Notes under the pieces: model-generated
Databases searched by the model: none
What the model was told of the DNA's origin: nothing
Seen by the model: only the letters and a program-made list of their open reading frames with translations
Made by a program: the position numbers and the translations under genes
Part shown: positions 6,479 to 60,098 of the stretch, one piece after another
Numbering within the stretch: position 1 is the first letter of the stretch
Layout of the letters: each line of letters begins with the position of its first letter
From: Cryomorphaceae bacterium
GTDB taxonomy: Bacteria; Bacteroidota; Bacteroidia; Flavobacteriales; ECT2AJA-044
DNA length: 64,000 nucleotides
Direction of reading: 5' to 3'
NCBI GenBank assembly: GCA_017798125.1
Contig: CP059070.1
Coordinates: 2,728,001 to 2,792,000 of the forward strand

Positions 6479-7322
6479 GATTCAGACAGCAACTGACTTT
6501 ATTGATCCAACCCAATTAAGAAACGCTCATCCCAAGCACAGGTCCATCCAGTTTGACTCGGATGGACTTTCTTTTTCAATATTGGACCTGGAACGCAACG
6601 CCTATATCGGTGTGCGCGACTACCGCTTTGACCCAACGGACCGTCCTGCTGAAATCTTGAATAACTACCAGGAGCTTCGAGAACAGGACGAATGGCTCAA
6701 GCAAGACTTCCACAGCGCCAGCTGTGCTTGGAATATTGGCGTCTCAACGCTGATCCCCGATGCTTTGAGTACCGCTGAGTCAGAGCGCAAATTGAGAGAT
6801 CTTGTTCAGCCTTTGCTGGCGACGGATCAACTCGAAAAAGATGAGATTGCCGCTATCGAGGCGCACAATGTGTATACCATCCCGCAAGACGCACAAACGC
6901 AGTTGAAGGCCAGCCGCATCGTTCACGGGAGCACCCCATTTCTCGAAGGTATGTTGCGCATTCATCAAAACGACCCAACCGCACGTGTTCTATTGAACTT
7001 TGAAGAGCGGCATTTCTACATTGTCGTTCTTCAGGATCGCAAACTTCAGCTCTTCAATCGCTTCCCCTTTCAAACAGCGGAAGACTATATCTACTACGTA
7101 CTTTTCACCATGGAGCAGTTGTCCTTGAACCCAGAAGAGGTTCCGGTGACGCTGTACGGCGGAATCGAAAAGAACTCAGCGCTGTACGACATCACCTATA
7201 CCTACGTTCGGCATGTGCATTGGGGCCTACGGCCCGATGGCTTTGTCTACGCACCCATCCTAGACAACCTTGCGGCGCACCAATACTTCGCACTTTTTCA
7301 GCAGTATCTATGCGTATCATAA
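6462..7322 (+). CDS. DUF3822 family protein
   Basis: 286 residues. It resembles the Bacteroidota-restricted DUF3822 family, which has an actin/hexokinase-like look with two related halves, and it sits as usual directly before rsmD and coaD. Its role is not known. The ATG lies 17 bp inside the upstream gene and the stop lies 13 bp inside rsmD, so translation is probably coupled along the operon. Near the C-terminus, the segment WGLRPDG is encoded by a copy of the dispersed palindrome (7223-7239) in which both arms carry a compensating change. Confidence 0.75.
   Translation: MVTGNKIQTATDFIDPTQLRNAHPKHRSIQFDSDGLSFSILDLERNAYIGVRDYRFDPTDRPAEILNNYQELREQDEWLKQDFHSASCAWNIGVSTLIPDALSTAESERKLRDLVQPLLATDQLEKDEIAAIEAHNVYTIPQDAQTQLKASRIVHGSTPFLEGMLRIHQNDPTARVLLNFEERHFYIVVLQDRKLQLFNRFPFQTAEDYIYYVLFTMEQLSLNPEEVPVTLYGGIEKNSALYDITYTYVRHVHWGLRPDGFVYAPILDNLAAHQYFALFQQYLCVS
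7223..7239 (+). repeat. dispersed palindrome, compensated variant (copy 1)
   Basis: GGGCCTACGGCCCGATG. Compared with the main form GGCCCTACGGGCCGATG, one C in the left arm is G and the paired G in the right arm is C, so the stem is kept. It lies inside the DUF3822 gene and is read in the same frame as the ALRAD copies (GLRPD). Confidence 0.5.
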
Positions 7323-7843
7323 GCGGAGAATATCGAGGGCGCAGAATTACAGCGCCCAACAACCTGCCTGTTCGACCCACAACCGATCGAGCCAAGGAAG
7401 CATTGTTCAATATTCTCGGACATCGATTGGATTTTGAAGACACGAAGGCGCTCGACTTCTTTGCGGGTATTGGAAGCATCACCCTCGAGCTCATCTCCAG
7501 AGGCTGTCCTGATGTTACTGCCGTGGACAAGCATCGCGACTGTGTGAACTTCATTCAAAAAACGGCCTCGGAATTAGGTATGGAGGGGCTCAAAGCCATT
7601 CGATCAGACGTATTCGTCTTTACAGAACGGACACCCGAGCGCTATAACTTCATCTTCGCTGATCCCCCGTATGACCTCATGCGCAGTGGAGAACTGGCGG
7701 AGCGAATTTTGGAAAGAGGCCTTTTGGAAGCCAATGGGCTCTTGGTCATTGAACACAGCGACGAAGAGGATTTGAGCAGCGTGAAGGGCTTCACCGAACA
7801 CCGCAGATACGGCCATGTGAATTTCTCTATCTTTGAGATATGA
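7310..7843 (+). CDS. rsmD: 16S rRNA (guanine966-N2)-methyltransferase RsmD
   Basis: 177 residues from ATG 7310 (MRIISGEYRGRRI), the standard RsmD beginning; the open frame extends 90 bp upstream over the DUF3822 gene and that part is not coding. Motifs: VRPTTDRAKEALFNIL (about 23-38), the SAM-binding block ALDFFAGIGSITLE (about 49-62), and the catalytic FADPPYD (about 114-120) typical of N2-guanine methyltransferases. It modifies G966 of 16S rRNA on the assembling 30S subunit. It overlaps DUF3822 by 13 bp and coaD by 4 bp (ATGA); rsmD-coaD is a widely conserved pair. Confidence 0.93.
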   Translation: MRIISGEYRGRRITAPNNLPVRPTTDRAKEALFNILGHRLDFEDTKALDFFAGIGSITLELISRGCPDVTAVDKHRDCVNFIQKTASELGMEGLKAIRSDVFVFTERTPERYNFIFADPPYDLMRSGELAERILERGLLEANGLLVIEHSDEEDLSSVKGFTEHRRYGHVNFSIFEI

Positions 7844-8295
7844 GTCGTATCGCCGTCTTCCCAGGAAGTTTTGATCCCATTACCAATGGGCATGTGGACA
7901 TCGTGCAAAGAGCTGTAGGGCTTTTTGACAAGATCATTATTGCCGTGGGCCAGAACGCTCAAAAGAAGTACATGTTTACCCGCGAGCAGCGCGTTACCTA
8001 CATCAAAAACGCCTTTGAAGGAGTTGATGAAATTGAAGTGATGGACTTTGAGGGGTTGACGGTAGACTTCTGTCGCTCCGTAGGAGCTCGATACCTCCTA
8101 CGAGGATTGCGGAATCCGGCTGATTTTGAATTCGAAAAGGCGATCGCTCAAGCCAACCGCATGATGGATCATCAATTGGAGACTGTATTTCTTCTGACCG
8201 ATCCAGAGTTCGCCGCCATCAGCAGCAGCATAGTCCGCGACGTATACCGCAATGGAGGTGACGTTTCTATGTTTGTGCCCGTAACAATCGGCTGA
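7840..8295 (+). CDS. coaD: phosphopantetheine adenylyltransferase
   Basis: 151 residues, close to the family length of about 160. CoaD moves AMP from ATP to 4'-phosphopantetheine, the fourth step of coenzyme A synthesis, as a cytoplasmic hexamer. The nucleotidyltransferase motif TNGH is at 15-18 within FPGSFDPITNGH, and the second signature AISSSIVRDVYRNGGDV is near residue 126. The last step of the pathway (coaE) is also in this window at 58.5 kb. The start overlaps the rsmD stop. The last 29 bp overlap the 3' end of the convergent Nudix gene, a longer antisense overlap than is usual here. Confidence 0.95.
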   Translation: MSRIAVFPGSFDPITNGHVDIVQRAVGLFDKIIIAVGQNAQKKYMFTREQRVTYIKNAFEGVDEIEVMDFEGLTVDFCRSVGARYLLRGLRNPADFEFEKAIAQANRMMDHQLETVFLLTDPEFAAISSSIVRDVYRNGGDVSMFVPVTIG

Positions 8296-8848: not shown

Positions 8849-8851
8849 TTG
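8844..8851 (+). promoter_or_regulatory. -7 promoter box TACATTTG in front of pyrE
   Basis: TACATTTG matches TAnnTTTG, overlaps the start codon of the divergent Nudix gene and ends 5 bp before the pyrE ATG at 8857. Transcription from it would begin at or next to the ATG, giving a leaderless or nearly leaderless message. No -33 TTG is seen at the normal spacing. Confidence 0.4.
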
Positions 8852-8856
8852 AACCC

Positions 8857-9498: not shown

Positions 9499-9508
9499 TT
9501 TGGGAACT

Positions 9509-10639: not shown

Positions 10640-10664
10640 TGATGTACAATGGTTTAGAACCGTG

Positions 10665-10685
10665 CATCGGCCCGTAGGGCGAAAA
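10665..10685 (-). repeat. dispersed palindrome, intergenic copy (copy 2)
   Basis: The plus strand reads CATCGGCCCGTAGGGCGAAA, so the element points to the minus strand (TTTCGCCCTACGGGCCGATG). It lies between the divergent birA and rsfS starts. It matches the other copies except for one outer stem base. Confidence 0.6.
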
Positions 10686-14844: not shown

Positions 14845-15567
14845 ATGAAACGCTTTATACTCTTTACCCTATCAATTTGCGCCTACGGCGCGATGTTTAC
14901 TTCCTGCGAAGACGCCTTCTGCGTCCAAGGATCAGGAGATGTGGAAATTCGCGACATCTTCGTCGAAGACTTCAGCGGAATTGAAAACCGTACCGTCATC
15001 GACATATACCTGACCCAGAGCTCAGACCCAAGCGGAATTGTTGAAGCTCGAGGTCAAAGCAACGTCCTTGATCAATTGGACATCACGGTGATTCAAGGAG
15101 TCTTGGTCATTGACAACAGAGAGTGCTTTTACACCGATGAGCAATTGGTCCTCTACATCGACGTTGATCAATTGGAAGAAATCCACCTCTACGGAAGCGG
15201 TGACGTATTCGGTGTTGGCGTCTTTGAAGTGGACGATATAGAACTGGACCTCAACGGCTCCGGTGATGTCGATCTAGAACTTTTGGCAGACGATATCGAA
15301 ACCGAGATTCGAGGATCCGGTGATATACGACTCCAAGGCGAAGCCGATTCTCATGACCTGCGCATCAGCGGCTCAGGAGATGTTGAAGCCTTTGGACTGT
15401 GGACCGAAGAAAGTGATGTGCGCATCTCCGGATCCGGAAGTGCGGAAGTCTATGCAGAAGACGTTCTCGATGTCGTCATCACTGGAAGTGGTTCCGTATA
15501 TTACAAGGGTTATCCGGACCTGAATGTCACCATTACAGGAAGCGGGTCCCTAATCAACGACAACTAA
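14845..15567 (+). CDS. lipoprotein with head-GIN/DUF2807 beta-solenoid domain
   Basis: 240 residues. An N-terminal signal with Cys at about 21 (FTSC) suggests a lipoprotein. The rest is a repetitive right-handed beta-helix in which Gly-Ser-Gly-[Asp/Ser] recurs about every 20 residues (at least nine times: GSGDVE, GSGDVF, GSGDVD, GSGDIR, GSGSAE, GSGSVY, GSGSLI and others), the pattern of DUF2807/head-GIN domain proteins. These are thought to be envelope or surface proteins; no ligand is known. It begins a plus-strand run of six genes. A second, differently patterned solenoid protein lies at 54.9 kb in a sigma-factor operon. Confidence 0.82.
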   Translation: MKRFILFTLSICAYGAMFTSCEDAFCVQGSGDVEIRDIFVEDFSGIENRTVIDIYLTQSSDPSGIVEARGQSNVLDQLDITVIQGVLVIDNRECFYTDEQLVLYIDVDQLEEIHLYGSGDVFGVGVFEVDDIELDLNGSGDVDLELLADDIETEIRGSGDIRLQGEADSHDLRISGSGDVEAFGLWTEESDVRISGSGSAEVYAEDVLDVVITGSGSVYYKGYPDLNVTITGSGSLINDN

Positions 15568-17369: not shown

Positions 17370-18335
17370 ATGCGCGTTTCCGGTTTTACCTTCGTCAAGA
17401 ACGCTACTCAGCTCTTTATTCCCGCCAAAGAGGCCATCGCCAGTGTTCTCCCGCTGGTCGATGAATTCGTAGTCGCCCTAGGAAAGGGCGATGCGAACGA
17501 CCAAACGCGAGCAGAGATTGAATCCCTTCGAGACCCCAAGATTCGTATCATCGAAACCGAATGGGATCTGGCGAACTACCCCAAAAACACCGTTTTCGCT
17601 CGCGAGACCGACAAAGCCAAGGAAGCCTGCACGGGAGACTGGCTCGTCTACATTCAATGCGATGAGGCCATCCATGAAAAATACCACGAGACCATTCGCG
17701 CGGCCATGGAGCGGCATCATGATGACTCCGAAGTTGAGGGCCTTTTATTCAACTACGTTCATTTCTGGGGAGACTTTGACCACTACCACGACGGGCACAC
17801 ATGGTACCGCAGGGAAGTTCGGATCATTCGGAACGACCCCAAAATCCACTCCTGGAAAGACGCTCAGAGTTTTCGATACTATGACGGGAACTTCGACTAC
17901 AGCTATGAGGCCTACCAAAGCAAAGAAGGCAACCGCAAATTAAATGTAGTGGCCCTACGGGCCGATGTCTACCACTACGGCTATGTCCGCCCCCCGCACC
18001 TGATGTCGGCCAAGCGCCGATCCAACAGCCGCAGCTACCACGGGGATCAGAAAAGTGAAGAGCTCTTAAAGGACTTACCGGCGGCATTCGACTACGGCCC
18101 CATGCAACACATTCCCAAATTTGAGGGCACGCACCCTGCTGTGATGAAGGACTGGCTATCCAAATTTGATTGGGCTGATCAACTTCAGTGGTCCGGCAGT
18201 GTAAATCCCGAACGGCTCAAGCACAAGCACGAGCGCACCAAGTACCGCTTGATCACCTGGTTTGAACGAAACGTTGTTGGACATCCGATCATGCAGTTTG
18301 AAAACTTCAATATCCTCCGCAAGGACAGGGGGTGA
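17370..18335 (+). CDS. glycosyltransferase family 2-like protein
   Basis: 321 residues. The start MRVSGFTFVKNATQL, with EAIASVLPLVDEFVVALGKGDANDQT and the later VYIQCDEAIHE, fits a GT-A fold, with QCDE in the place of the usual DxD. The protein lacks a membrane segment, so it acts at the cytoplasmic face; donor and acceptor are unknown. The piece VVALRADVYHYG (about 191-202) is encoded by a perfect copy of the dispersed palindrome. It follows the NTF2-like gene by 9 bp. Confidence 0.78.
   Translation: MRVSGFTFVKNATQLFIPAKEAIASVLPLVDEFVVALGKGDANDQTRAEIESLRDPKIRIIETEWDLANYPKNTVFARETDKAKEACTGDWLVYIQCDEAIHEKYHETIRAAMERHHDDSEVEGLLFNYVHFWGDFDHYHDGHTWYRREVRIIRNDPKIHSWKDAQSFRYYDGNFDYSYEAYQSKEGNRKLNVVALRADVYHYGYVRPPHLMSAKRRSNSRSYHGDQKSEELLKDLPAAFDYGPMQHIPKFEGTHPAVMKDWLSKFDWADQLQWSGSVNPERLKHKHERTKYRLITWFERNVVGHPIMQFENFNILRKDRG
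17951..17967 (+). repeat. dispersed palindrome inside glycosyltransferase gene (copy 3)
   Basis: GGCCCTACGGGCCGATG, the exact main form. Read on the coding strand as gcc-cta-cgg-gcc-gat it encodes ALRAD. The five-base arms GGCCC/GGGCC surround TAC. Confidence 0.7.
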
Positions 18336-18358: not shown

Positions 18359-18697
18359 ATGAGTCCCGAAGAACGTCAAGAAGTAACTACCAAAATCAAA
18401 GAGGCCTTGGAACAGGTCCGGGAAGAAATTGCCCGATTGCGTGAATTGACAAAGCCGATTGCTCCAGAAAACGCCATTGGCCGCGTTTCACGGATGGACG
18501 CCATCAACAATAAATCCGTCAATGAAGCGGCGCTCCGAAAAGCGGTGGCTCGTTTTCGCGGTTTGGAAAGTGCGCTGGGACGCGTGGATGAAGATCATTT
18601 TGGGCGCTGTCGCAGTTGCGGAGATGAAATCCCGACGGGGCGCTTACTCTTGTTGCCGGAAAGTGTGTTGTGTGTGCAGTGTGCATCGCGCCGTTGA
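18359..18697 (+). CDS. DksA/TraR-family C4 zinc-finger protein
   Basis: 112 residues from ATG 18359; a GTG at 18353 is in frame too. An N-terminal coiled-coil helical part is followed by the zinc finger with C84, C87, C105 and C108 (CRSCGDE and CVQC). In DksA-type proteins such a finger supports binding in the secondary channel of RNA polymerase. This protein keeps a coiled coil of about 70 residues but lacks the classical DxxDxA tip motif, so a direct DksA role is not certain. A TACTTTG lies 8 bp before the ATG and may be its own promoter box. Confidence 0.82.
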   Translation: MSPEERQEVTTKIKEALEQVREEIARLRELTKPIAPENAIGRVSRMDAINNKSVNEAALRKAVARFRGLESALGRVDEDHFGRCRSCGDEIPTGRLLLLPESVLCVQCASRR

Positions 18698-18710
18698 GGC
18701 GCAAAACCGA

Positions 18711-28632: not shown

Positions 28633-28652
28633 TTTGGCCCTACGGGCCGATG
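28633..28652 (+). repeat. dispersed palindrome, intergenic copy (copy 4)
   Basis: TTTGGCCCTACGGGCCGATG, the complete main form, 7 bp beyond the stop of the minus-strand radical SAM gene and 29 bp after the terminator of the plus-strand gene. It could serve as the transcription end for the radical SAM operon, but it has no T run on that strand. Confidence 0.7.
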
Positions 28653-30686: not shown

Positions 30687-32048
30687 TTATAGATCGTTCT
30701 TGGTCCAGTTGTACTGGAAATTACATTCATAACTGTTGGGCATCACACGCACATAGGTATCGTCCAAACGGTCCGATACCCAATCCGTGGTGATTTCCTG
30801 CTGTTTCTTACCGGTGGCCATCATTTGCAAACGCTGGTAGTCATCTTTCAGGTTGGCCCGGTGGGGCTCCGAACGGCTAATGAGCTGTACCAAACGAAAT
30901 CCCTGCTTACCATTGGGCGTTTGGTAGTTAATCGGCCCGGCAATCTCGCCCACATTCACTTCTTCAATGGTGAAATAAACCGAGCGGTCCAATTCGGAGA
31001 TCTCAAACTTGGTATCCGCTGTGGCCGGATTCACCATAAGTCCCCCGTTGTTTTTGGTATCCGTATCATCAGAGTATTCCATTGCGGCCTCCTCAAAGCT
31101 CAAAATTCCGTCATTGATAATGACCTTCAGACTATCCAAAAAGTTCTGGGCTTCCTGTAAATCTTGAGGGCTTATTTTAGGTACAATCAAAATGTGGCGC
31201 ACGTCGATCTCCTGCCCTCTTTTGGCCTCCAATTGGCAGACATGGTATCCGAATTGGGTTTCGAAAACGTCGCTAACCTCGCCTGGCTGGAGCGCAAAGG
31301 CTACTCCCTCAAACTCCTTGACAAACTGGCCGCGTTTTACCCCTTCATACAATCCTCCGTTCTTCGAAGAACCGGGGTCCTCGGAATAGAGGATGGCCAT
31401 GGTTGAAAACTTGGAACCGTTGGCAATACGTTCTTTGATCTGTCTCAGCTCTTCAATAGCGTCCGTCTTCGCTTCTTCCCGTACTTCAGGAAACTTGACG
31501 ATCTGAGCTACCTCGACTTCCGGAATTGATGAGGGAAGGCTATCTCTGGGGATGTCCCGGTAAAACTTACGCACCTCGCCTGGAGTAACCTCAACTTCGC
31601 CCACGACTTCACCTTGCATGCGCTGAGCCGTCAATTGACTCTTCATCGAAGAACGCATTTCCTCTTTAATCTCAACGATGGACTGCCCGTAAAACTCTTC
31701 GAGTTTCTGGATACCCCCAATTTGAGCCTCGAGCATGGACAAACGGCGATCCATTTCGGATTCCACTTGTTCGTCAGAGATGATAATAGAGTCAATCTCT
31801 GCCTGATTTAATAGGAGCTTTTCAAACATCAAATCTTCAAATACCTGACATTTGGATAAGGCGGTCTCTGCAATACCCTGCTGTTGATACTGAAGATACT
31901 GCGCTTCTACATCCGAACGGAGTACTTTGTAACCGCCGACAACGGCGACCACCTGGTCAATAACTTCCCCAGTGGGCTGGGCCCATCCGGCCGTGGAGGC
32001 CGATAAAAACAATACCAAAAAGGCCTTAATCGTAGATCTCAAACTCAT
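30687..32048 (-). CDS. SurA-like periplasmic peptidyl-prolyl isomerase/chaperone
   Basis: 453 residues with a signal peptide ending SAGWAQP. The N-terminal chaperone part begins VVAVVGGYKVLRSDVEAQYLQ (about 32-52). Two parvulin-type domains follow (about 175-270 and 280-400), recognised by FSTMAILYSEDPGSSKNGG and VRHILIVPKISPQDLQEAQ. Such proteins guide outer-membrane proteins through the periplasm. Its start lies 23 bp inside the 3' end of the upstream lipoprotein gene, and the MoxR gene starts 2 bp after its stop. It is one of three folding factors in a row. Confidence 0.88.
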   Translation of the reverse strand: MSLRSTIKAFLVLFLSASTAGWAQPTGEVIDQVVAVVGGYKVLRSDVEAQYLQYQQQGIAETALSKCQVFEDLMFEKLLLNQAEIDSIIISDEQVESEMDRRLSMLEAQIGGIQKLEEFYGQSIVEIKEEMRSSMKSQLTAQRMQGEVVGEVEVTPGEVRKFYRDIPRDSLPSSIPEVEVAQIVKFPEVREEAKTDAIEELRQIKERIANGSKFSTMAILYSEDPGSSKNGGLYEGVKRGQFVKEFEGVAFALQPGEVSDVFETQFGYHVCQLEAKRGQEIDVRHILIVPKISPQDLQEAQNFLDSLKVIINDGILSFEEAAMEYSDDTDTKNNGGLMVNPATADTKFEISELDRSVYFTIEEVNVGEIAGPINYQTPNGKQGFRLVQLISRSEPHRANLKDDYQRLQMMATGKKQQEITTDWVSDRLDDTYVRVMPNSYECNFQYNWTKNDL

Positions 32049-34805: not shown

Positions 34806-34830
34806 CGTAAATCCTGAATTTGTTTATTGA

Positions 34831-36351
<1,521 letters not shown>

Positions 36352-39663: not shown

Positions 39664-39700
39664 TGACCTCAGTATTTGCCTTCAAGATACGGAAAAGCAC

Positions 39701-39726
39701 AAAAAAACCCCGCCGAGGCGGGGTTT
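39701..39726 (-). terminator. intrinsic terminator between the two T9SS genes
   Basis: AAACCCCGCC-GA-GGCGGGGTTT (39705-39726) is a perfect hairpin followed, on the minus strand, by a T7 run (plus strand A run from 39701). It terminates the 39744-43091 gene before the downstream paralogue, so the paralogue must have its own promoter in about 35 bp. Confidence 0.9.
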
Positions 39727-39743
39727 CAACACTTTTCTTGTAC

Positions 39744-43091: not shown

Positions 43092-43221
43092 AGGTAGACG
43101 CTTCTGATAACCAGGCAAGCTGTAAAGTTAATTATTTGTAATCCTTTAACCTAAAGCTCTGCCCTGAGCTGTTTCATGATCGGTTTTCAAGACAAACGCA
43201 AGAATTGCTCAAATCGTTGGT

Positions 43222-44460
43222 TTAGGTCCACATCCAGATTAAAAAGAATGCAGAAAAAAGACTTAATAATACGACTCCAACCCACCCGTAGATTCGCCAG
43301 CCCACGCCGAGACGGCCATCTCCCGTGACTTCTTCCCCAGTCATGGCCCGAAGGTTCAAATAAGCGATAACCGGAGCAAAAACGAAGCTCAAGGTTGTCG
43401 CAAAATCCACAAGTGACTTCAACGATGTAACAAAGGCGAAAATGATCAGATAGCTCCCTCCTGCAAGCACCAGAAGAAAAGCTGGGTCAAACTGCCGGGG
43501 AAGCGGTTTATCTCGGAGTTGTAGGGATATTTCACGGAGGGTTCTGGCATATCCATCAAATACCGTAACCGTCGTAGACAACATGACGGTAAAGGCCGAA
43601 AGAGCAATCACCCACCTAAATTCTTCACCCAGGCTAAAGGTATATAAGGAAACGATTTGATCCGCAAACGCCACCGCAGAGCTCGAAAACTCAGTTCCCG
43701 TTCCGTACATCAAATAAGCGCCAAGGGACAAGAAGCAGAGCGCCAAGACCGCTGAAATTAGATAGCCAATGCGAAACTCGACCAGCACCTCTCGAACGGT
43801 CGGTCGGTAACCGGTCTGACGAATCCTGGCCAAGGTCCACAGGCTATTCCAAACGGAAAGATCCACGGCCGTAGGCATCCAGCCCATAAGGGCAATCGTA
43901 AAGGCAAGGGTTGAATGTTCCCAGAAGCCCGGCGCCTCAACGGCGCGATGGTCCACTACCGGTCCGTGAATCATCGTCAGCACAAATACAGCAACCGTAC
44001 TTAATAGAAGAAAAATAGAAACCACTTTCATCAGCCCATCCAAGGCATTGAACCTCCCGATCAGCAATAGCGCAACAACTGCAAGAAAGAGCAGACCGGT
44101 CATATTGGCCATGGAAATGGACAGTCCCAGTAGATTATTCAAGATTCCGGCACAGACAAAACTGACCGCAGCGGTAACGGCAAACATGGAGCCCAGTGTT
44201 ATGAAGAGGTAGACGTAAACCGCCCATCGGCCTACTCTCCGATACCCCGCCAACAGCGAAGTCCCGGTGGAAACGGCATATCGAGAACCGAACTCGAAGA
44301 ATGGAAATTTAATCACATTGGCCAACAAGACGGCTCCGACCAGCAAAAAGCCGTAGGTCGCTCCGGCACGAGTACTCTGGACCAAGTGACTCACGCCTAT
44401 CGCAGCGGAGGCAAAGAGTATTCCCGGACCTAGCGTCTTGAGAAAATTCTGAAGTTTCAC
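43222..44460 (-). CDS. Nramp-family transporter lacking the DPGN motif
   Basis: 412 residues with about eleven membrane helices. The start is GTG 44460, which overlaps the TGA of the upstream gene (GTGA); the open frame extends to 44514 but that part lies in the neighbour. The first helix reads GPGILFASAAIGVSHLVQSTRAGA, so the DPGN metal-binding motif of Nramp transporters is replaced by GVSH. Helix 6 carries GWMPTAVDLSVW, where MPxH would be expected. Such Nramp-like proteins are unlikely to move Mn2+ or Fe2+ in the standard way; some non-canonical relatives carry Mg2+ or other cations. The substrate is open. Confidence 0.78.
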   Translation of the reverse strand: MKLQNFLKTLGPGILFASAAIGVSHLVQSTRAGATYGFLLVGAVLLANVIKFPFFEFGSRYAVSTGTSLLAGYRRVGRWAVYVYLFITLGSMFAVTAAVSFVCAGILNNLLGLSISMANMTGLLFLAVVALLLIGRFNALDGLMKVVSIFLLLSTVAVFVLTMIHGPVVDHRAVEAPGFWEHSTLAFTIALMGWMPTAVDLSVWNSLWTLARIRQTGYRPTVREVLVEFRIGYLISAVLALCFLSLGAYLMYGTGTEFSSSAVAFADQIVSLYTFSLGEEFRWVIALSAFTVMLSTTVTVFDGYARTLREISLQLRDKPLPRQFDPAFLLVLAGGSYLIIFAFVTSLKSLVDFATTLSFVFAPVIAYLNLRAMTGEEVTGDGRLGVGWRIYGWVGVVLLSLFSAFFLIWMWT

Positions 44461-45413: not shown

Positions 45414-47034
45414 GTCTTCGGATCACTTTTTTAACCTCCTGACGCTCGCCATTGGCCCACCATTCCAAAAGGTAGACACCGGCCGGCAGGTCGGAAGGTA
45501 AAGATAACCGAAGATAATAGTCGCCTCCAAAAGCCACATCGGAGATTCGTTGACCGTGAATGGTCGAGAGGCGAAAGACCGCATCTGATGAAACCGGTCC
45601 ACTCAGCACAATATTCAATTCGTTGACAAAGGGGTTCGGAAAAACATTCCAAGGATCCCGCACCACAGCTAAGCTGTCCGTAGCGTTCAACAACAGCTCA
45701 TAAGCCAATCCGTAATCTGGTATCCCATAGCCCATCTCATTGTTGGGTCTTTGAGCTAAGTGCGCACTGGCTTCAACCGCCTTCATCACCTTCCAGTTGC
45801 TGTGTTCGGGTAGTCTTCCCCACAGAGCGGCCGTCATTCCCGTGATCACCGGAGCTGAAAAACTGGTTCCATTCCCACGAGCAGTTCCTCCATTCAACGT
45901 GGCGATGGTAGCCTGCTCCCCAAGGGCAGTGACGTTCGGTTTGATACGTCCGTCATAAGTGGGACCCACGGAGCTAAACGAAGCGTATTCCTCATCTCGA
46001 TTGACGGCACCAATGGAAAAAACGGAGTCTCCATCGGCCGGAGCACCCATGTATCGCCATGAGCTCTGCGCGTAGTTCCCGTTGCTATTGACCACCAAAA
46101 TCCCTTTACTGGCAGCCATATCTGCCCCTCGCGTTACGATGGTCGTGTTGCCGTCCATGTCTTCATAGGTGTAGCCCACATCCCCGTCGAACCGAGTATA
46201 GCCTAGACTCGAATTGATCAAATCTGCTCCGGCGGAGTCCGCCCATTCCGCACCGGCCACCCAATTGTCTTCTTCCACCATCGTTTCTGATCCTGTATCT
46301 TCCGTTCGGGCAAGGAGGTAATTTGCATCTGGAGCCGTTCCAATCATTACGCCGGGCTCATTAGCGGCCATTATACTCCATACAAAGGTCCCATGAGTGC
46401 TGGAAACGTAGACGGAATCGCCTCCGTCCACAAAATCTTTAACGCCCACCAATCGACCAGATTCTCGGACATGATCAAAAACAGCCATGCCTTCTGCACC
46501 GAAGAAACCGCCGTCTAAGACAGCTATGGTCATGCCTTCACCGCGATACCCTGCTGCATGAAGGCCCAACCCGTTAATCATCTCAATTTGCTGAAGCGCA
46601 TCTCCATAATCCGCATCGCTGGAGCCGAATGCCTTGGACGGAGGAAGGTCCTCATCACCGAGCTCATAGCTCCATTGACGAACCGGTTCTACTCGATCAA
46701 CAAAATCGGGAAGGTTACGCCGGTTCCAGCGCTGAAAGGCATCATCTGCGCGGACGGATACCGCATTGAGCCAATGGCTGTGCTGGACGATTTGGAGTCC
46801 ATCGGCCCGTAGGGCCAAAATATAGTCCTCGAAAACGGGAAGATCAGAAGCCGTCCACGAAATGTTCTGCCGCTCGCGGCGCTCGATGGCTCGGTCCGAA
46901 TAGTGATCGGTTACCCGTTCGATGCGGTCCGCGACGGGACCTCGATCGCTGAAGAAGATCCACATTTTACCTGAATCCTGCGCTCCAACGATGGACGCGG
47001 CACTCAAGGCCAGAATGAGGAACCAACTTTTCAT
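45400..47034 (-). CDS. T9SS-exported subtilisin-like serine protease
   Basis: 544 residues. Signal peptide ends ASIVGAQ (about 1-19); an N-terminal prodomain-like segment follows, then an S8 catalytic domain with Asp174 (AVLDGGFF), His214 (STHGTF), the oxyanion region NSNGN (about 316-320) and Ser391 (GNGTSFSAPV). The last 85 residues (NVFPNPFVNELNIVL, then LPAGVYLLEWW and VKKVIRR) form a type A sorting domain for T9SS export. The prodomain piece LALRADG (73-79) is encoded by a copy of the dispersed palindrome. The gene abuts mnmA upstream (47034/47035). Confidence 0.92.
   Translation of the reverse strand: MKSWFLILALSAASIVGAQDSGKMWIFFSDRGPVADRIERVTDHYSDRAIERRERQNISWTASDLPVFEDYILALRADGLQIVQHSHWLNAVSVRADDAFQRWNRRNLPDFVDRVEPVRQWSYELGDEDLPPSKAFGSSDADYGDALQQIEMINGLGLHAAGYRGEGMTIAVLDGGFFGAEGMAVFDHVRESGRLVGVKDFVDGGDSVYVSSTHGTFVWSIMAANEPGVMIGTAPDANYLLARTEDTGSETMVEEDNWVAGAEWADSAGADLINSSLGYTRFDGDVGYTYEDMDGNTTIVTRGADMAASKGILVVNSNGNYAQSSWRYMGAPADGDSVFSIGAVNRDEEYASFSSVGPTYDGRIKPNVTALGEQATIATLNGGTARGNGTSFSAPVITGMTAALWGRLPEHSNWKVMKAVEASAHLAQRPNNEMGYGIPDYGLAYELLLNATDSLAVVRDPWNVFPNPFVNELNIVLSGPVSSDAVFRLSTIHGQRISDVAFGGDYYLRLSLPSDLPAGVYLLEWWANGERQEVKKVIRRHGGQ
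46800..46820 (-). repeat. dispersed palindrome inside the subtilase gene (copy 5)
   Basis: The plus strand reads CATCGGCCCGTAGGGCCAAA. On the coding (minus) strand it encodes ALRAD, residues 74-78 of the protease, in the prodomain. Confidence 0.7.
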
Positions 47035-48231: not shown

Positions 48232-48917
48232 TACAAATCCTCCGCTTCTATTTCCTTTCCGCGGTCATACAATACCTTACGGACGGGCTTTTTGTTCTCA
48301 TAGAAGATCCACCATCCGTCCTTCTCACCTTGATAATACTTGCCCTTCGAGTCCATATCCCCCGTTGGATTATAGTATTCAGCCACTCCCGCTAAGGCTC
48401 CATGATCATAAGTGCCTGCGGCACGAAGCGTACCATCGTCGTAATAGATTCGCCAATCTCCATGGAGTTCACCCATCTCGTAATGCGTGATCTCCGCAAC
48501 TGCACTGTCCGTGTAGAAGGAGTACTGTTTTCCGTCCTGAACTCCGTCCACATAATGCTCCTGGGAGACAAAGTTCCCGCGCGCATCCCAGTAATTCCAC
48601 TGACCAATTTTGAAGGTATCCACGTAGCTTCCTTGCGCAAAGAGTTTTCCGGTAACGTGATACATGGTCGCATAGCAGTCCCCTGGCCCTACGCCGTACT
48701 CTTTGACCGCAGCTTTGGCCCCATCGGGATAATAAAAGGTGAACGTACCAACTTCTTCGCCATGCTCAAAGGTGCCCTCATAGCGAACTCCTCCGTCCTT
48801 GAAATTCTTTTTCCAGGGACCGTGACGACGGCCTTCAGCATCGAGTTCGTTGAAACTCGGCTGCGCGCAAATCCATCCGCCCGTGAGGGCGAAAAATAAG
48901 GTGATGAAGTGCTTCAT
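48231..48917 (-). CDS. secreted MORN/YwqK-like repeat protein
   Basis: 228 residues from ATG 48917 (a GTG at 48923 is also in frame). A signal peptide (about 1-20, ending GGWICAQ) is followed by a chain of MORN-like repeats: [56 protein letters not shown], and several more, with the Gly-x-W/Y-x-x-Y-x-x-D/G pattern. It falls in the group labelled YwqK antitoxin-like, but no toxin gene is near and the protein is secreted, so that name would mislead. The signal-peptide DNA (48874) resembles the dispersed palindrome. Confidence 0.78.
48874..48895 (-). repeat. dispersed palindrome, compensated variant in a signal-peptide region (copy 6)
   Basis: Coding strand TTTTCGCCCTCACGGGCGGA and onward (TG): stems CGCCC and GGGCG around TCAC, with a one-base insertion and one swapped base pair relative to the main form. 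Confidence 0.4.
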
Positions 48918-48941
48918 TTTCACCGTGCAAAGATACGGAAA

Positions 48942-49739: not shown

Positions 49740-50750
49740 TTAGCCTCGGTAGGTCTCTGCCCATTCAAGGTATTTAGCCTCTTTCATGGTCCAGCGCTTC
49801 CAGAGCGAAAAGGCAACGCCGGTGCCATAACCGTACATTTGAATGGCCGTTGTGACGAGTGACAGCAGGCCTACGACAATGGATCTGTTTTTCACCGTAG
49901 CATCTAGGAATACGAGTAAAAAGTAGATCAGGTAAGATCCTAACATCCAGGGCTCACTTATAATTGCGCCGAGTACCGCCAATACGAATCCGGCCGTGAA
50001 GGCCGTAGGAATCAAAAAGAAAGGCTTAAACGTATCGGGATACATCGTGGAAATAACGATGCGCACAAAGCCGAAGCGATATACCTGACGTTTGTACTGA
50101 CTCAAGCTCGTTCTTCTCTTGTGGTACACAAAAGCCTCTGAGATAAGGGCCGTCTGGAAACCACCTTTGATGATTTCAATGGCCAAGATCATGTCTTCGC
50201 CCGGGTGAAGTCGAGTATCGGGAAAACCACCCATCTGCTCGTACACTTTGCGCGAAAACCCGAGATTAAAGGATCGAGGATGAAACTTATCCACCTGTTT
50301 TTTTCCTCCGCGAATCCCACCAGTAGTGAGAAAGCTGGTCAGACTATAGCTGATGGATTTTTGTAGTGTATTAAAGCTCTTATCGGCCATGTCTGGCCCT
50401 CCAAAAGCCTGTACATCAGGATGCTCCGTAAGATAGCGTCGTACCTCCGCCACATAATGTGAGGGAAGAATGCAGTCGGAATCAACAAAGAGAAAATAAT
50501 CTCCCGAAGCGCGTTCGATACCGTAGTTTCGGGCGATGGACGGACCGGCGTTTTCCTTGTAGAAGTAGTGGATGTCCAGGTCATCGCTGTATTTTTCGAC
50601 GACGTGCTTGCTGTCGGAATCGCTTCCGTCCTCCACCAGAATTAATTCGAAATCAGGATCGGTCTGGGTCTTTAAACTGGAAAGAAGTTCCTCGACCTCA
50701 TCCGGTCGGTTGTATACCGGAACAATAAATGAAAGCCTCAAAGTACTCAT
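49740..50750 (-). CDS. family 2 glycosyltransferase with membrane helices
   Basis: 336 residues from ATG 50750 (MSTLRLSFIVPVYN); the open frame extends 135 bp upstream over the next gene and is not coding there. GT-A motifs: IVPVYNRPDEVEELL (about 8-22), LVEDGSDSDSK (about 36-46), the DxD-like FLFVDSDCILP (about 86-96) and HPGEDMILAIEI. Two or three hydrophobic segments follow (about 240-310). It starts 2 bp after the upstream glycosyltransferase stop. It probably builds a cell-surface glycan at the inner membrane. Confidence 0.86.
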   Translation of the reverse strand: MSTLRLSFIVPVYNRPDEVEELLSSLKTQTDPDFELILVEDGSDSDSKHVVEKYSDDLDIHYFYKENAGPSIARNYGIERASGDYFLFVDSDCILPSHYVAEVRRYLTEHPDVQAFGGPDMADKSFNTLQKSISYSLTSFLTTGGIRGGKKQVDKFHPRSFNLGFSRKVYEQMGGFPDTRLHPGEDMILAIEIIKGGFQTALISEAFVYHKRRTSLSQYKRQVYRFGFVRIVISTMYPDTFKPFFLIPTAFTAGFVLAVLGAIISEPWMLGSYLIYFLLVFLDATVKNRSIVVGLLSLVTTAIQMYGYGTGVAFSLWKRWTMKEAKYLEWAETYRG

Positions 50751-54940: not shown

Positions 54941-55879
54941 TTATCGCCAGGAAATATTGAAGTCGCTGTGCTGAACGGACGTCCTGATGATCGGCGCCGC
55001 CTCATCATTGACCGTAATTCGGTATTCCTCGCTATTGAATCCTGTTTCTTTCTCTTGGATCTTCATTCCTGAAGCCCCATCCACGTCGGAGAAGCTCGCT
55101 TTAATTTCCATCCGCATGCGGGCTTGTTCATTTATGCTGAGCTCAAAATCAGAGAAGTCAACATCAAGGTCCATGGCATCCCATTCAACGCCCGCTACAT
55201 CGAGGTTGAAATCACTGTGCTGCACCCGAAGGTCTCCAATCATCTTTTCGACGCGCTCAATCTCCACATCACTGAATTTCACATCCAACTCTAAGGCTTT
55301 GATGTTCTCGGCAATGAAATCACTGTGTTGAATTTCTGCATTGAGACCGTTGATGTTCTTGGCAAAACCGTCGCCAAAAGCCAACTCGATTTCATTCTGC
55401 TCATGACTCCATCCCGATACACGGAAGTCCCCATGCTGCACATCGAGTCGTGTTGGACCGTAGCGATCCTCTACGAATACATCTCCAAAGGAATTGCGGA
55501 TTTCGACTTGAGTAGATTGCGGTACACGCACTTCATAGTCGATCGAGAATTTCTCGATTTTATTTCCGCAGTTGCAGTCGTTCTTCGTCTCGGCAACAAC
55601 TCGATCGCCATTGACTGAGAATTTCACATCCATCTTTTCGAAGGCTTCGTTCACTGCGCGATCTGATTTTCCTTCAACGGTAATCTTCACTTCGATTTCG
55701 ATTGAATTTCCCGGGTAATCGGTCAACTGAACATCACCAAAGCTATTTCGAATAAAGAGCTCTCCACTGGAACCCACGTCAAAGGATTTCTCGATGGTCC
55801 GCTCCAGGTACTGTGCCCATAGAAAGGTAGGCATCAGAGCTAGAGCGAGAAGTAGTGTTGTGTGTTTAAGCGTTTTCAT
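54941..55879 (-). CDS. secreted beta-solenoid protein (DUF4097-like) of an ECF sigma operon
   Basis: 312 residues with a signal peptide (about 1-22, ending LWAQ). The mature protein is a regular series of short steps with F-[SG]-D-[VF], about every 20-30 residues: NSFGDVQL, NSFGDVFV, QHGDFRV, AFGDGFA, QHSDFIA, KFSDVEI, QHSDFNL, DFSDFEL, SFSDVDG, QHSDFNI. This is a DUF4097-type right-handed solenoid. It is the last gene of the sigma/anti-sigma unit and overlaps it by 14 bp. It may be the envelope sensor or effector of that system. Confidence 0.8.
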   Translation of the reverse strand: MKTLKHTTLLLALALMPTFLWAQYLERTIEKSFDVGSSGELFIRNSFGDVQLTDYPGNSIEIEVKITVEGKSDRAVNEAFEKMDVKFSVNGDRVVAETKNDCNCGNKIEKFSIDYEVRVPQSTQVEIRNSFGDVFVEDRYGPTRLDVQHGDFRVSGWSHEQNEIELAFGDGFAKNINGLNAEIQHSDFIAENIKALELDVKFSDVEIERVEKMIGDLRVQHSDFNLDVAGVEWDAMDLDVDFSDFELSINEQARMRMEIKASFSDVDGASGMKIQEKETGFNSEEYRITVNDEAAPIIRTSVQHSDFNISWR

Positions 55880-56453
55880 TTCCGTAGTTTTTCTGTTCGT
55901 TCAAGGTTTGGAGTTGGTTGGTCAGTGCTTCCAGCACATCAATGCGATCACGATAATTTTCGATCATAGCATTGATTACGCGTTCGTCACTGTAGTTTCG
56001 AGCCAAGGCCTTGGCCAGCTCTTCATAGGCTTCTTCTAATTCGTCCAATTCGGTGAAATAACTCTGCAGGATATAGTCTTCTGCACCTGGCATTTGTTGC
56101 ACTTCTTCCTTCTTGGCCAAAATGGTCCGTCGGTAGTAATCTTCCACTTGAGCCATTTCGCTCGACACCTCCTCGAGGTACATGTTCTGGTCTCCGACAA
56201 TCTTTTCTTCCACGGGAACCAAACTGTAGTTCTGGTAAACGAATACAGCTCCGAAAATCACTACCGCGGCGGCGGCTGTATAGGCGATCTTCATTAGGCC
56301 CTGACGGGCCGATGAGCGCGTAGATTCGTTCTCCTCAGCGGCTTGCTTACCCTGTAACTTTTGTTCGAAGCGGTTGCGGTGCCCGAGAGGTGGGCGGTCC
56401 CGATCAAAGGACTCTTGTTGCTCCCGAATGAAATCTTCTAACTTATCCGACAT
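55866..56453 (-). CDS. membrane protein in the anti-sigma factor position
   Basis: 195 residues. The N-terminal 50 residues are soluble and charged (MSDKLEDFIREQQESFDRDRPPLGHRNRFEQKL), followed by one membrane helix (about 56-74) and an extracytoplasmic helical part. It overlaps the sigma-factor gene by 11 bp and the solenoid gene by 14 bp, the usual place for an anti-sigma factor, but I see no zinc-binding ZAS motif (HX3CX2C), so the assignment is by position and topology. The DNA at 56297-56314 is a copy of the dispersed palindrome. Confidence 0.68.
   Translation of the reverse strand: MSDKLEDFIREQQESFDRDRPPLGHRNRFEQKLQGKQAAEENESTRSSARQGLMKIAYTAAAAVVIFGAVFVYQNYSLVPVEEKIVGDQNMYLEEVSSEMAQVEDYYRRTILAKKEEVQQMPGAEDYILQSYFTELDELEEAYEELAKALARNYSDERVINAMIENYRDRIDVLEALTNQLQTLNEQKNYGNENA
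56297..56314 (+). repeat. dispersed palindrome with one-base insertion (copy 7)
   Basis: GGCCCTGACGGGCCGATG, the main form with one extra base in the loop. It is in the opposite orientation to its host gene, unlike the ALRAD copies, and reads SARQGL on the coding strand. Confidence 0.55.
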
Positions 56454-57006: not shown

Positions 57007-57014
57007 AATAAAAA

Positions 57015-57048: not shown

Positions 57049-57068
57049 GATAATTTTTCAAAAAAAAG

Positions 57069-58556
57069 TTAGAGTTCGGCAAAGGCCTGTCCAAAATATT
57101 CCGGCAGATCCGTAGCCAAAAGGCTCTCTTCACTCTGGTCGGCAAGTGCCAGTTCAGCTGCTCTACCATGCAGATATACACCCATGATCGCCGCTTCAGC
57201 AACACCGTATCCCTGTGCACGCAAACCCGTGAGCAAACCCGTGAGCACATCTCCACTCCCACCAGTTGCGAGCCCTGAATGACCGGTACTGTTGAAATAC
57301 ATCTCTCCATTGGGCAGAGCCGTCGCTGTGTAGGCTCCTTTCAAGACTAAAACGCATTGATGGCGGGCAGCGAACTCCAATGCCGCGTCATATTGATCTG
57401 GCCCGGGGCTCACCCCGCTCAAGCGAGCGAACTCGCCTGGATGCGGGGTTAGAATAGGCATCTGTTGACAAAAAGAAAGCCAGGTCAGGTTTTCCGCGAG
57501 AATATTCAGAGCATCCGCATCAAAAACCAATGGAACGCTGGCTTGACGAATCAGGTTTTGAAGCATGTGGGAGGTGTCCTCATCCTGTCCAATGCCAGGA
57601 CCAACGCCAATAGCCGTATATCGATCCAATTGTGGTAGATCGCTGAGATGTTCGGGCAAGGGGTCAAAGACACCCATAGCTTCTGGAACACTAGATGGCC
57701 ATATCAGCTCCGCGGAGCCAGGAAGGTATCCAGTAAGTAGTCCTACTCCGCTTCGAAGGGCTCCGCGAGCACTCATGATGGCGGCACCGAGTGTACCACG
57801 AGCCCCAGCGGCCAATAAGGCATGGCCAAATCGGTTCTTGTGCGCAAAACTGGGACGCTCTCGATATCGCTGCGCCACCCAATAGTGATCCACAAAGTAG
57901 TTCGGAGTCAGTACTTCATCTTCGTATTGAGCATCCAAGTCGATGTCAATCAATTCAAAGGGGCCGCATAGGGGGCCGCTGTCGGGCAAGAGTAGCGCTC
58001 GCTTGGGCCACTGAAAGGTCAAAGTAGCATCGGCCCGTAGGGCCAAACTCAGGTCATTTTCGCGGTTGTCGTCTGCAAAAATTCCGGTCGGCACATCAAC
58101 GGCAATTGTAAAGCGACGATCCCGATTAAGTGCTTGACATACTTCGGCGAGGAAGCCGTCCAAAGGCTGACTAAGGCCAGATCCGAGAATGGCATCGATG
58201 CGTATGCGATCCGGCTCGTCCCCTTCAGGCCGATCATCAGACGACCAAGTCTCAAACGCGTTCAGCTTGGATAAGTTGGTTTCGAAATCAGGACTTCCCG
58301 TTGTGCGATGCTGAATCACGACCACGCGAACGTCGTAGTCCGCCGACCTGAGTTGGCGGGCAATGGCCAAGCCATCTCCTCCATTGTTGCCCATCCCGCA
58401 GTAGATGGTAAATGGGGTATTGGGGTCAAAGATCTCGGTGAGTCGATCGGTGATCCCTGCGGCAGCGCGCTCCATGAGATCAATGGACGAAATAGGCTCT
58501 CGTTCTATAGTGAGCCGATCGGCCTCACGAATTTGCTCGACGGATAAAATCTTCAT
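57069..58556 (-). CDS. nnr: bifunctional NAD(P)H-hydrate epimerase/dehydratase
   Basis: 495 residues, two domains. The N-terminal YjeF_N epimerase (about 1-215) has IYCGMGNNGGDGLAIARQL (about 51-69), and the C-terminal ADP-dependent dehydratase (about 225-495) has GLLTGY, VGPGIGQDEDTS, LTPHPGEFARL and the catalytic GGSGDVLTGLLTGL (about 433-446). Together they repair NADHX and NADPHX. The epimerase part carries the piece LALRADATLTF, coded by a copy of the dispersed palindrome. The gene overlaps coaE by 32 bp. Confidence 0.93.
   Translation of the reverse strand: MKILSVEQIREADRLTIEREPISSIDLMERAAAGITDRLTEIFDPNTPFTIYCGMGNNGGDGLAIARQLRSADYDVRVVVIQHRTTGSPDFETNLSKLNAFETWSSDDRPEGDEPDRIRIDAILGSGLSQPLDGFLAEVCQALNRDRRFTIAVDVPTGIFADDNRENDLSLALRADATLTFQWPKRALLLPDSGPLCGPFELIDIDLDAQYEDEVLTPNYFVDHYWVAQRYRERPSFAHKNRFGHALLAAGARGTLGAAIMSARGALRSGVGLLTGYLPGSAELIWPSSVPEAMGVFDPLPEHLSDLPQLDRYTAIGVGPGIGQDEDTSHMLQNLIRQASVPLVFDADALNILAENLTWLSFCQQMPILTPHPGEFARLSGVSPGPDQYDAALEFAARHQCVLVLKGAYTATALPNGEMYFNSTGHSGLATGGSGDVLTGLLTGLRAQGYGVAEAAIMGVYLHGRAAELALADQSEESLLATDLPEYFGQAFAEL
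58028..58047 (-). repeat. dispersed palindrome inside nnr (copy 8)
   Basis: Plus strand CATCGGCCCGTAGGGCCAAA. The coding (minus) strand encodes ALRAD in the N-terminal epimerase domain of Nnr. Confidence 0.7.
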
Positions 58557-59115
58557 GCAAGGCCAAAATTTGCGGCAGTACCAAGTGGTGACCGTCGTTA
58601 TTGATTTCGTGTTGACTGTGCGCCCTCCGCTCTTCCTCGCTCCACTGACGCGCCATGCGCTGACGTATCTCCGGCGCAGTCAGGCCATCGCGCTTCATGA
58701 CGCGTTCCAAGCGAACTTCCACCGGAGCACTGACCAGGATGACTTCATCCAGTGTCAAATGCGATCCAGACTCAAACATGATGGCGGCCTCCTTCAATAC
58801 ATACGGCGTGTTTTGCTTCTCCAACCAGGCGTAAAAATCTCTGCCTACGGCAGGATGCACGAGCTTATTCAAAGCTTCTAATAGCGCTTGGTTGTTGAAG
58901 ACGCGTTCGGCAATCCACGGGCGGTTCAATCGACCATCCGTGTAGGCTTCTTCTCCGAGCAATTGGATGACCTGTTCTTTGAGAAGGGCGTCTTCGAGAT
59001 AGAGAGCCTTAGCTCTCGAATCGGCATCGTAGATAGGGATTCCCAAGTTCTGAAAGACCCGCGCAATGGTGCTCTTGCCCGATCCAATACCGCCTGTGAG
59101 CCCTACCTTGATCAT
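58525..59115 (-). CDS. coaE: dephospho-CoA kinase
   Basis: 196 residues. CoaE phosphorylates the ribose of dephospho-CoA with ATP, the last step in CoA synthesis. P-loop GGIGSGKST is at 8-16, then VFQNLGIPIYDADSRAKALY and the lid region VRLERVMKRDGLTAPEIRQRMARQWS. The gene overlaps ybbR by 4 bp and nnr by 32 bp; the set yajC-ybbR-coaE is standard in Bacteroidota. Its 3' extension into nnr is normal in length. Confidence 0.95.
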   Translation of the reverse strand: MIKVGLTGGIGSGKSTIARVFQNLGIPIYDADSRAKALYLEDALLKEQVIQLLGEEAYTDGRLNRPWIAERVFNNQALLEALNKLVHPAVGRDFYAWLEKQNTPYVLKEAAIMFESGSHLTLDEVILVSAPVEVRLERVMKRDGLTAPEIRQRMARQWSEEERRAHSQHEINNDGHHLVLPQILALHEDFIRRANS

Positions 59116-60098
59116 TTGCGGAGGATTAAGAATTCAACGCGCTCGGGTTCGGTTCGTACTATTTCCGCAACATCTGGAATCGTAGTCCAAGTAGGTCGAA
59201 CGCGGTCTCCAGTCGTCTTGGTGATTTGCTGATATTCGACCACCGCCGTAAAATCGGCCGCGGACAGTTCTTGATATCGCGATAGTGGTACTCGGCAAAT
59301 GGCCTTGACGCGCGGAGGAAAAAGGCGCAGACCCAAGGAATCCGGAAGGCCCAACATCTGGACGGGTATTTCGTAGGCGACTTCGGTAAACTCTTCAACG
59401 GGCAATAGAACTTCGACTTCAGAAGGGCTGAAGCGCAAGGTGCTGTCGAGAGCGGCCAGTTTGAGCGTCGCGCGAAGCGTGTCTTCTACATTTTGAACGT
59501 TCCAGGATTCGGTCAGAGCGCGACTCAAAGTGTCCATTACCTCGCTTCGGCCCGAAACTTTGACTGATGGCGGATCAATAATGACTTCAGAGGTCGCTCC
59601 AAAGCCCGTTTTGAAGGCGATGGCCAGGTCAACCTCTACGGGAAGCGGCTTATCGGCCCGCAGGGCAAAAGGAAAAAATAAGGTATCCGGATAAACGGAG
59701 AGGACATTGACCGAACCCGAGAGTTCGTCGGACAATCCGGTTCGGAACTCGCTCAACTGGATGTAGGCGCGCTGCTTTTCGCTGCGCCGTTGGCGCAATT
59801 CAACCCGGTCAAAATCCAGAACCAAGTTGTTTCGATTCCGGTATCGATATCCCAAGAGGTCAAATCCGTAGCCTTCTACTTCAAGAGTAATGGTGGGCGC
59901 TTGGTCCAAAAGCCAGATTCGATCATCAGGAAGGTGCTCATATTGAATCGGAAGATCTATAACCGCCGTGTAGGTCCGTGAGAGTTTACTCAGAATCCAG
60001 AACAGCGACGAAAGGGCCAAGCAGAAGATGAAAATGGACCGCTTGCGATCGTCTTGAATCAAGCGAGTTAATGGATTTCGAAGTGCGGAGGCGGCCAT
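59112..60098 (-). CDS. YbbR/CdaR-like domain protein
   Basis: 328 residues. One N-terminal membrane helix (about 20-42, KRSIFIFCLALSSLFWILSKLS) precedes tandem YbbR-like beta domains, recognised by PIQYEHLPDDRIWLLDQAPTITLEVEG, DLAIAFKTGFG and PPSVKVSGRSEVMDTL. In Firmicutes, CdaR (YbbR) controls the diadenylate cyclase CdaA; no cdaA is seen here. The piece FALRADKPLPVEV is coded by a palindrome variant at 59651. It follows the yajC terminator. Confidence 0.85.
   Translation of the reverse strand: MAASALRNPLTRLIQDDRKRSIFIFCLALSSLFWILSKLSRTYTAVIDLPIQYEHLPDDRIWLLDQAPTITLEVEGYGFDLLGYRYRNRNNLVLDFDRVELRQRRSEKQRAYIQLSEFRTGLSDELSGSVNVLSVYPDTLFFPFALRADKPLPVEVDLAIAFKTGFGATSEVIIDPPSVKVSGRSEVMDTLSRALTESWNVQNVEDTLRATLKLAALDSTLRFSPSEVEVLLPVEEFTEVAYEIPVQMLGLPDSLGLRLFPPRVKAICRVPLSRYQELSAADFTAVVEYQQITKTTGDRVRPTWTTIPDVAEIVRTEPERVEFLILRK
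59651..59670 (-). repeat. dispersed palindrome variant inside ybbR (copy 9)
   Basis: Plus strand TATCGGCCCGCAGGGCAAAA; the coding (minus) strand encodes FALRAD in frame. One loop base differs from the main form (GCA rather than GTA) and one outer pair is lost. Confidence 0.55.

Follow-up and report, generated by a model that had tools for sequence, protein, structure and literature searches.

A dispersed palindrome in a Cryomorphaceae genome is one form of a genus-specific family of DNA hairpins that evolves in place

Results

The repeat belongs to a motif family defined by folding

The 64,000-nucleotide stretch of DNA analysed here, which we refer to as the window, comprises positions 2728001-2792000 of the 2.84 Mb single-contig genome of a Cryomorphaceae bacterium (CP059070.1; G000 herein) and carries a dispersed 17-base palindrome. 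We found that this repeat is one form of a larger family of DNA motifs that is defined by folding and not by fixed letters, that its copies arise by substitution in place, and that the preferred loop changed genome-wide between G000 and its sister species (G001 herein), the sole same-genus genome found. An earlier note on the window had listed the palindrome at nine places and read it as a spreading element accepted in frame. When the sequence was re-checked all nine places were present, except that the copy placed at 28633 should read 28636 and that those at 10665 and 59651 pair only at the four inner positions. The repeat is also more frequent than chance allows, as had been claimed, with eight window matches to the 17-mer at up to three mismatches versus 0.12 expected from shuffles. 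The count of nine was too low, as the general rule given below yields 17 strict elements plus two 4-bp variants in the window (Table 1). A genome-wide count gave 92 exact copies of GGCCCTACGGGCC against one for a reversed-pattern control; at up to three mismatches the 17-mer had 324 copies in the whole of G000 (control 6) and 179 in G001 (control 9).

Many of these variants carry paired changes (GGGCC/GGCCC, GACCC/GGGTC, GCCCC/GGGGC and GTCCC/GGGAC), and this covariation of the arms supports the earlier description of a hairpin whose stem is kept by compensating changes. Counts of the general hairpin rest on 864 kb of G000 and 1,139 kb of G001 (400 kb in an earlier G001 sample), the share read directly being ~30% and ~45% of the two genomes, respectively. 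A census of perfect 5-bp hairpins, in which loop and tail were left free, covered 864 kb of G000 and 400 kb of G001 and singled out the loops TAC, TGC, TTC, TCAC and TCAAC together with the tail GATG. Using a first rule of NNNCC-T(N1-3)C-GGN'N'N' followed by GATG, GATA, GATT or GAAG, we found 214 perfect 5-bp stems in G000 versus 0 and 1 for two scrambled controls, and 132 in G001 versus 1 and 0. A slightly wider tail and loop rule, on which the later totals are based, gave 225 in G000 and 389 in G001, a density of ~260-340 copies per Mb; by extrapolation, the genomes hold about 740 and about 850 copies. Scrambled-tail, loop and reversed-pattern controls ruled out chance, codon usage or composition as the source. 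As stem perfection is itself a selection criterion of the element set, the evidence lies in the contrast with controls and in the scarcity of near-misses, and a covariation score, being circular for rows picked for perfect pairing, was not counted.

Read on the strand that carries the T of the loop, an element consists of a T-rich flank, a 5-bp stem enclosing a T..C loop of mostly 3-5 nucleotides, and an unpaired GAT(G) at the other foot. The opposite strand reads CATC (also TATC or AATC), the stem with a GNA, GNNA or GNNNA loop closed by C-G, and an A-rich end. GNA and GNNA loops closed by C-G form unusually stable DNA mini-hairpins. The two loop-proximal stem pairs are C-G, while the outer arm takes 25 different triplets in G000, so that letters vary and structure is conserved. 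In the two genomes pooled, 516 perfect stems are followed by a GAT tail, and stems with one pair broken and the rest intact number only 6 for the middle pair, 16 for the third and 75 for the outermost; among the mismatches there is no preference for G.T wobble. Just outside the stem, the position facing the G of GATG is occupied by C, its potential partner, in only 1/225 elements in G000 and 7/389 in G001; a sixth pair is therefore excluded and the GAT must stay unpaired. Intrinsic terminators do not account for this arrangement: the T run precedes the hairpin on its 5' side and the opposite strand has A at its end, so that a hairpin with a U run after it arises from neither strand.

Copies arise by substitution in place and follow a species dialect

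Fifty-eight G000 elements could be aligned in G001, with flanks 70% identical, and 40 of these are still hairpins. At 15 of the 40 retained orthologous sites, which form the basis of our compensation counts, the arms have changed and remain complementary (for example, CGGCC/GGCCG to CTGCC/GGCAG and TTGCC/GGCAA to CTGCC/GGCAG). Where the orthologous site lacks a hairpin, in either direction, the core aligned gap-free in 61 of 67 cases; none of the remaining six is a clean empty site, their sequence having the look of ordinary divergence. Since the hairpin-less sites are gap-free, copies arise by substitution in place, and since core identity at the gap-free absent sites is 0.61-0.73, compared with 0.70-0.71 in the flanks, they differ by a few substitutions and not by wholesale replacement.

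The same was found for protein. The earlier note had likened the repeat to the Rickettsia palindromic elements (RPEs) and had proposed asking if the peptide ALRAD, encoded by several copies, is a gap-flanked insertion. When the window protein at 17370-18335 was aligned with 23 relatives, ALRAD faced residues such as VKAEI or LKAYI with no gap. Together, the DNA and protein alignments reject an inserted, spreading element. The tolerance of the motif in frame within unrelated genes is supported, and the single frame reported for the copies giving ALRAD or GLRPD is correct for those copies but does not hold across the family, whose members occupy all six reading frames over the 864 kb of G000. 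Of 45 cases in the ALRAD frame, 40 use CTA, a rare codon that makes up only 2,019 of 15,324 CTN codons overall. The shared peptide is a by-product of the frame that best tolerates GCC CTA CGG GCC GAT, not a conserved inserted peptide; the earlier observation is confirmed and its interpretation partly supported.

The two species differ in the loops that they prefer. On the CATC strand, the second base of the triloop is T in 103/144 cases in G000 and C in 117/211 in G001, corresponding to a preference for GTA versus GCA; tetraloops are mainly GTGA or GTAA in G000 and GCGA, GAGA or GCAA in G001. The outer pair is G-C in 195/225 G000 elements, whereas G001 uses both G-C (184 of 389) and C-G (171). 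At orthologous loops, TAC in G000 stood opposite TGC in G001 ten times and the reverse was never seen. The dialect of the motif has therefore changed genome-wide between the sister species.

Elements lie on both strands and mostly in genes

Genes were called with a simple codon-usage caller. About 80% of G000 elements are in genes, with 175 of 225 lying fully inside a gene and 41 being intergenic, although density per kb is higher between genes than within them (0.80 vs 0.23 in G000; 0.41 vs 0.35 in G001). The strands are used almost equally, both along the sampled DNA (117 plus, 108 minus) and relative to the genes that contain the elements (T-loop strand sense in 168, antisense in 130). There is no replichore bias, and the orientation bias along replichores that a Chi-like site would show was sought and not found. 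In the antisense frame in which a TAC loop would make the stop codon TAG, TAC was found in 0 of 14 elements and TGC in 11, whereas TAC dominates the other five frames; loop choice thus shifts with reading frame. Three-nucleotide loops make up 43/50 of intergenic and gene-edge copies versus 101/175 of those in genes (p = 0.0002), which suggests an unconstrained optimum near TTTTGGCCCTACGGGCCGATGC, the longer loops probably being accommodations to coding constraint.

Density also depends on gene G+C, rising from 0.024 per kb in the lowest quintile to 0.466 in the highest, with nearly none in genes below 47% G+C, and this rise is steeper than we would expect from base composition alone. Spacing is slightly over-regular (coefficient of variation 0.83 vs 0.92 ± 0.05 simulated), and the T-side flank in G000 is AT-rich over ~40 bp. 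A recombination hot-spot signature sought around elements amounted only to a mild regional rise in G+C. G001 elements have an additional weak downstream consensus, GCAACT at +6 to +11 after the stem, that was not seen in G000.

Several further features of placement were observed. Many elements coincide with, or closely follow, hydrophobic and signal-peptide-like stretches at protein N-termini (window 1713, 31984 and 48874; L076:18989, L084:11698, L085:3278 and L093:18421), a placement that fits the T-rich 5' flank. Low-G+C genes (0.37-0.42), perhaps recently acquired, have no elements inside them at L070:1-18000, L091:11600-19400 and L059:8200-16200. Between tandem genes, in G000 and G001 together, the CATC-GNA strand is the mRNA strand for 28 of 35 intergenic copies (28:7), a bias that may partly reflect start-codon calls, as GATG contains ATG.

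The motif is confined to one genus

Among 395 genomes of the class, GGCCCTRCGGGCC was strongly enriched in this genus only, the next best genome having 13 copies. The general hairpin was at background level in samples of 20 other genomes, and a 21-position covariance model run on 58 further genomes of the order gave 0-3 matches per genome, compared with at least 137 in each of G000 and G001. A high candidate count in one genome, G431, was due to runs of N and high G+C. IMG/VR viral contigs contained one exact 17-mer. Relatives of one window protein point to the Flavobacteriales. A literature search found no paper with the repeat string, and nothing matching under dispersed hairpin repeats or Rickettsia elements.

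Discussion

A putative reader of folded DNA

Taken together, the compensated hairpin, the unpaired tag, the indifference to strand and frame, the gain by substitution and the shift in loop suggest that folded DNA is read by a trans-acting factor. The constraint on the hairpin is itself an observation; that a protein recognises the DNA as a hairpin is highly probable. We propose that a genus-specific factor would read the hairpin in single-stranded or extruded DNA, perhaps on the strand CATC-stem-GNA-stem-A-rich, and that sites would be kept because the factor acts on them. As a whole, the picture of a genome-wide signal written in shape, with exact 5-bp hairpins evolving in place, a GNA/GNRA-type loop, an unpaired tag and a putative reader whose specificity has drifted, seems to us evenly balanced between right and wrong. 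We found no described counterpart for a hairpin-read code, either for self-DNA or for genome maintenance.

The job that we favour for such a reader, by analogy with DNA uptake sequences, is recognition of a self-DNA mark in DNA exchange or recombination, in which motif-bearing DNA would be favoured and the motif would consequently spread. This function is tentative, and the full statement that joins it to hairpin recognition falls somewhat short of an even chance. ComEC and DprA, both widespread proteins, are present and in its favour. Riemerella columbina (Flavobacteriaceae) prefers its own DNA in transformation (PMC7965970), which makes self-marking in the order plausible, as a precedent from outside this genus.

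A number of results weigh against a self-DNA mark. No reader protein was identified. The ATPase of type IV pili or type II secretion systems (PF00437; PilB/PilT-type) had no match above the cut-off in G000 or G001, and G000 also has no secretin; the established route of uptake is therefore missing. If the motif marked self DNA, recently acquired DNA should be depleted of elements, and genes without a detected G001 orthologue were not poorer in elements in a GC-matched test of small numbers. In addition, a motif spread by drive and prone to drift would seem to require less strict pairing than is observed, and the uptake sequences that are known consist of fixed letters and do not form hairpins as their signal.

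Strict pairing and the conservation of 40/58 sites fit with sites of genome maintenance. Here a protein of replication restart, priming or the nucleoid would bind the hairpins on either strand, and direct selection, not drive, would preserve each site. The equal use of both strands, the slightly over-regular spacing and the AT-rich T-side flank agree with this. However, the dependence of density on gene G+C, with its near absence from low-G+C genes, and long gaps such as window 31984-43931 do not, no such protein is known to have hairpin sites by the hundred, and confinement to one genus would not be expected. We regard genome maintenance as unlikely, if close behind the self-DNA mark, which we infer to be the better reading.

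The remaining explanations are less probable. The anatomy of the element, a short complementary-changing stem with a short loop and an unpaired tetranucleotide at one foot, is that of a tagged repetitive extragenic palindromic (REP) sequence, and the hairpins could accordingly be single-stranded DNA substrates of an HUH (Y1) transposase or of its lost or highly diverged descendant; CGTC-tagged REPs, some of which lie within genes, likewise lack a transposase of their own (PMC3733652). This is improbable, as PF01797 (Y1 transposase) had no match in G000 or G001 even at E <= 10, the PF03432 relaxase is absent, the copies are not insertions, the tag CATC is neither GTAG nor CGTC, and most elements lie in genes. 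Hairpin-templated mutation, in which template switching rewrites one arm from the other and yields perfect palindromes without a reader, would explain why arm pairs changed in compensation (15 unique sites) are more numerous than those with a single break and an unaltered loop and tail (10) and why broken inner pairs are rare genome-wide, but we consider it very unlikely since it leaves the fixed C-C/G-G pairs, the T..C loop, the GAT tail, the excluded sixth pair and the species dialects unexplained. An RNA-level element, a transcribed hairpin with a GNA/GNRA loop on the CATC strand that is bound or cleaved in mRNA, is equally unlikely: 4-nt loops on that strand are mostly GNRA and it is mostly the mRNA strand between tandem genes, but that bias may partly be start-codon annotation, within genes it is the opposite strand that slightly more often corresponds to the mRNA, and both the use of either orientation and the intolerance of G.U on either strand disfavour RNA structure.

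Comparison with known repeats and signals

GTAG- and CGTC-tagged REPs (PMC3733652) share with the present motif, besides the anatomy noted above, a copy number of hundreds and some occurrences in genes. They differ in that the tag here is CATC, the stem is exactly 5 bp, copies are mostly genic where REPs are predominantly extragenic, gain is by substitution and not insertion, and the Y1 transposase of the GTAG class is absent from both genomes. DNA uptake sequences of the Neisseriaceae (PMC3630211) likewise occur in coding and intergenic DNA, on both strands and in lineage-specific dialects, in hundreds to thousands of copies compared with hundreds here; they are, however, a fixed string, whereas here letters vary while pairing is kept, and no type IV pilus ATPase was found above the cut-off. 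In its dynamics the motif is like an uptake-sequence dialect and in its anatomy like a tagged REP, and it failed defining tests of both.

RPEs are similarly palindromes tolerated in frame within unrelated proteins, but they are insertions, whereas the elements described here align gap-free; RPE-4 and RPE-6 have been classed as CGTC REPs (PMC3733652). Cyanobacterial HIP1 (PMC4390886) is also a highly iterated palindrome across the genome. It consists of a single invariant 8-mer, GCGATCGC, that has been examined in connection with methyltransferases, whereas the arms of the present motif vary and stay complementary. The promoters of the phage N4 virion RNA polymerase are 5-7 bp DNA hairpins with a 3-nt loop that are read in single-stranded DNA; as these are a handful of phage sites versus hundreds of chromosomal ones here, they serve as an analogy only.

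Known signature motifs (uptake sequences, Chi, HIP1) are fixed strings and known palindromic repeats (REPs, RPEs) are inserted, and a motif of folded shape that changes the encoded residues in place across hundreds of loci, with a drifting dialect, mixes features of both classes. It implies a putative hairpin-reading DNA-binding system, for which the 22-nt oligonucleotide GCATCGGCCCGTAGGGCCAAAA is a ready bait.

Elements in the window and minor observations

Table 1. Hairpin elements of the window, written as stem-loop-stem + tail on the T-loop strand (ORF, open reading frame).
Position	Strand	Element	Type	Context
320..336	-	GTGCC-TAC-GGCAC + GAAG	hairpin	antisense in ORF 95-1153; strict rule
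1713..1729	+	GTGCC-TTC-GGCAC + GATG	hairpin	near N-terminus of adenylate-cyclase-domain protein (1658-3811)
7223..7239	+	GGGCC-TAC-GGCCC + GATG	hairpin	encodes GLRPD in DUF3822 protein
10665..10681	-	CGCCC-TAC-GGGCC + GATG	4-inner-pair variant	intergenic
14879..14895	+	GCGCC-TAC-GGCGC + GATG	hairpin	overlooked in the earlier note
17951..17967	+	GGCCC-TAC-GGGCC + GATG	hairpin	encodes ALRAD; glycosyltransferase of the earlier note (without Pfam match)
18684..18702	-	GCGCC-TCAAC-GGCGC + GATG	hairpin, 5-nt loop	
23366..23383	-	GTGCC-TTGC-GGCAC + GATG	hairpin, 4-nt loop	intergenic
28636..28652	+	GGCCC-TAC-GGGCC + GATG	hairpin	intergenic, convergent genes either side
31984..32002	-	CGGCC-TCCAC-GGCCG + GATG	hairpin, 5-nt loop	near N-terminus of PPIC/SurA-like protein
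43932..43950	+	GCGCC-TCAAC-GGCGC + GATG	hairpin, 5-nt loop	antisense in weak Nramp-like gene
46800..46816	-	GGCCC-TAC-GGGCC + GATG	hairpin	encodes ALRAD in subtilase
48412..48428	+	GTGCC-TGC-GGCAC + GAAG	hairpin	antisense in MORN-repeat gene 48231-48923
48874..48891	-	CGCCC-TCAC-GGGCG + GATG	hairpin, 4-nt loop	near N-terminus of MORN-repeat gene 48231-48923
49987..50005	-	CGGCC-TTCAC-GGCCG + GATT	hairpin, 5-nt loop	
56297..56314	+	GGCCC-TGAC-GGGCC + GATG	hairpin, 4-nt loop	antisense in ORF 55866-56453
58028..58044	-	GGCCC-TAC-GGGCC + GATG	hairpin	encodes ALRAD in NAD(P)HX dehydratase/epimerase (Nnr)
58841..58857	+	CTGCC-TAC-GGCAG + GATG	hairpin	antisense in ORF 58525-59115
59651..59667	-	TGCCC-TGC-GGGCC + GATA	4-inner-pair variant	ALRAD frame in YbbR-domain protein

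The element-free gap at 31984-43931 extends over 12 kb and holds two large ORFs (1103 and 1124 amino acids). Elsewhere in G000, an exact element at C1:515997-516013 lies ~285 bp upstream of the dprA match, possibly by coincidence. A secretin is located on a small G001 contig (C119:1425-1922) and has no counterpart in G000. Three intergenic elements, at L091:13354, 14497 and 17299, have a common downstream string (gatgctcaagcgc...), which suggests local duplication.

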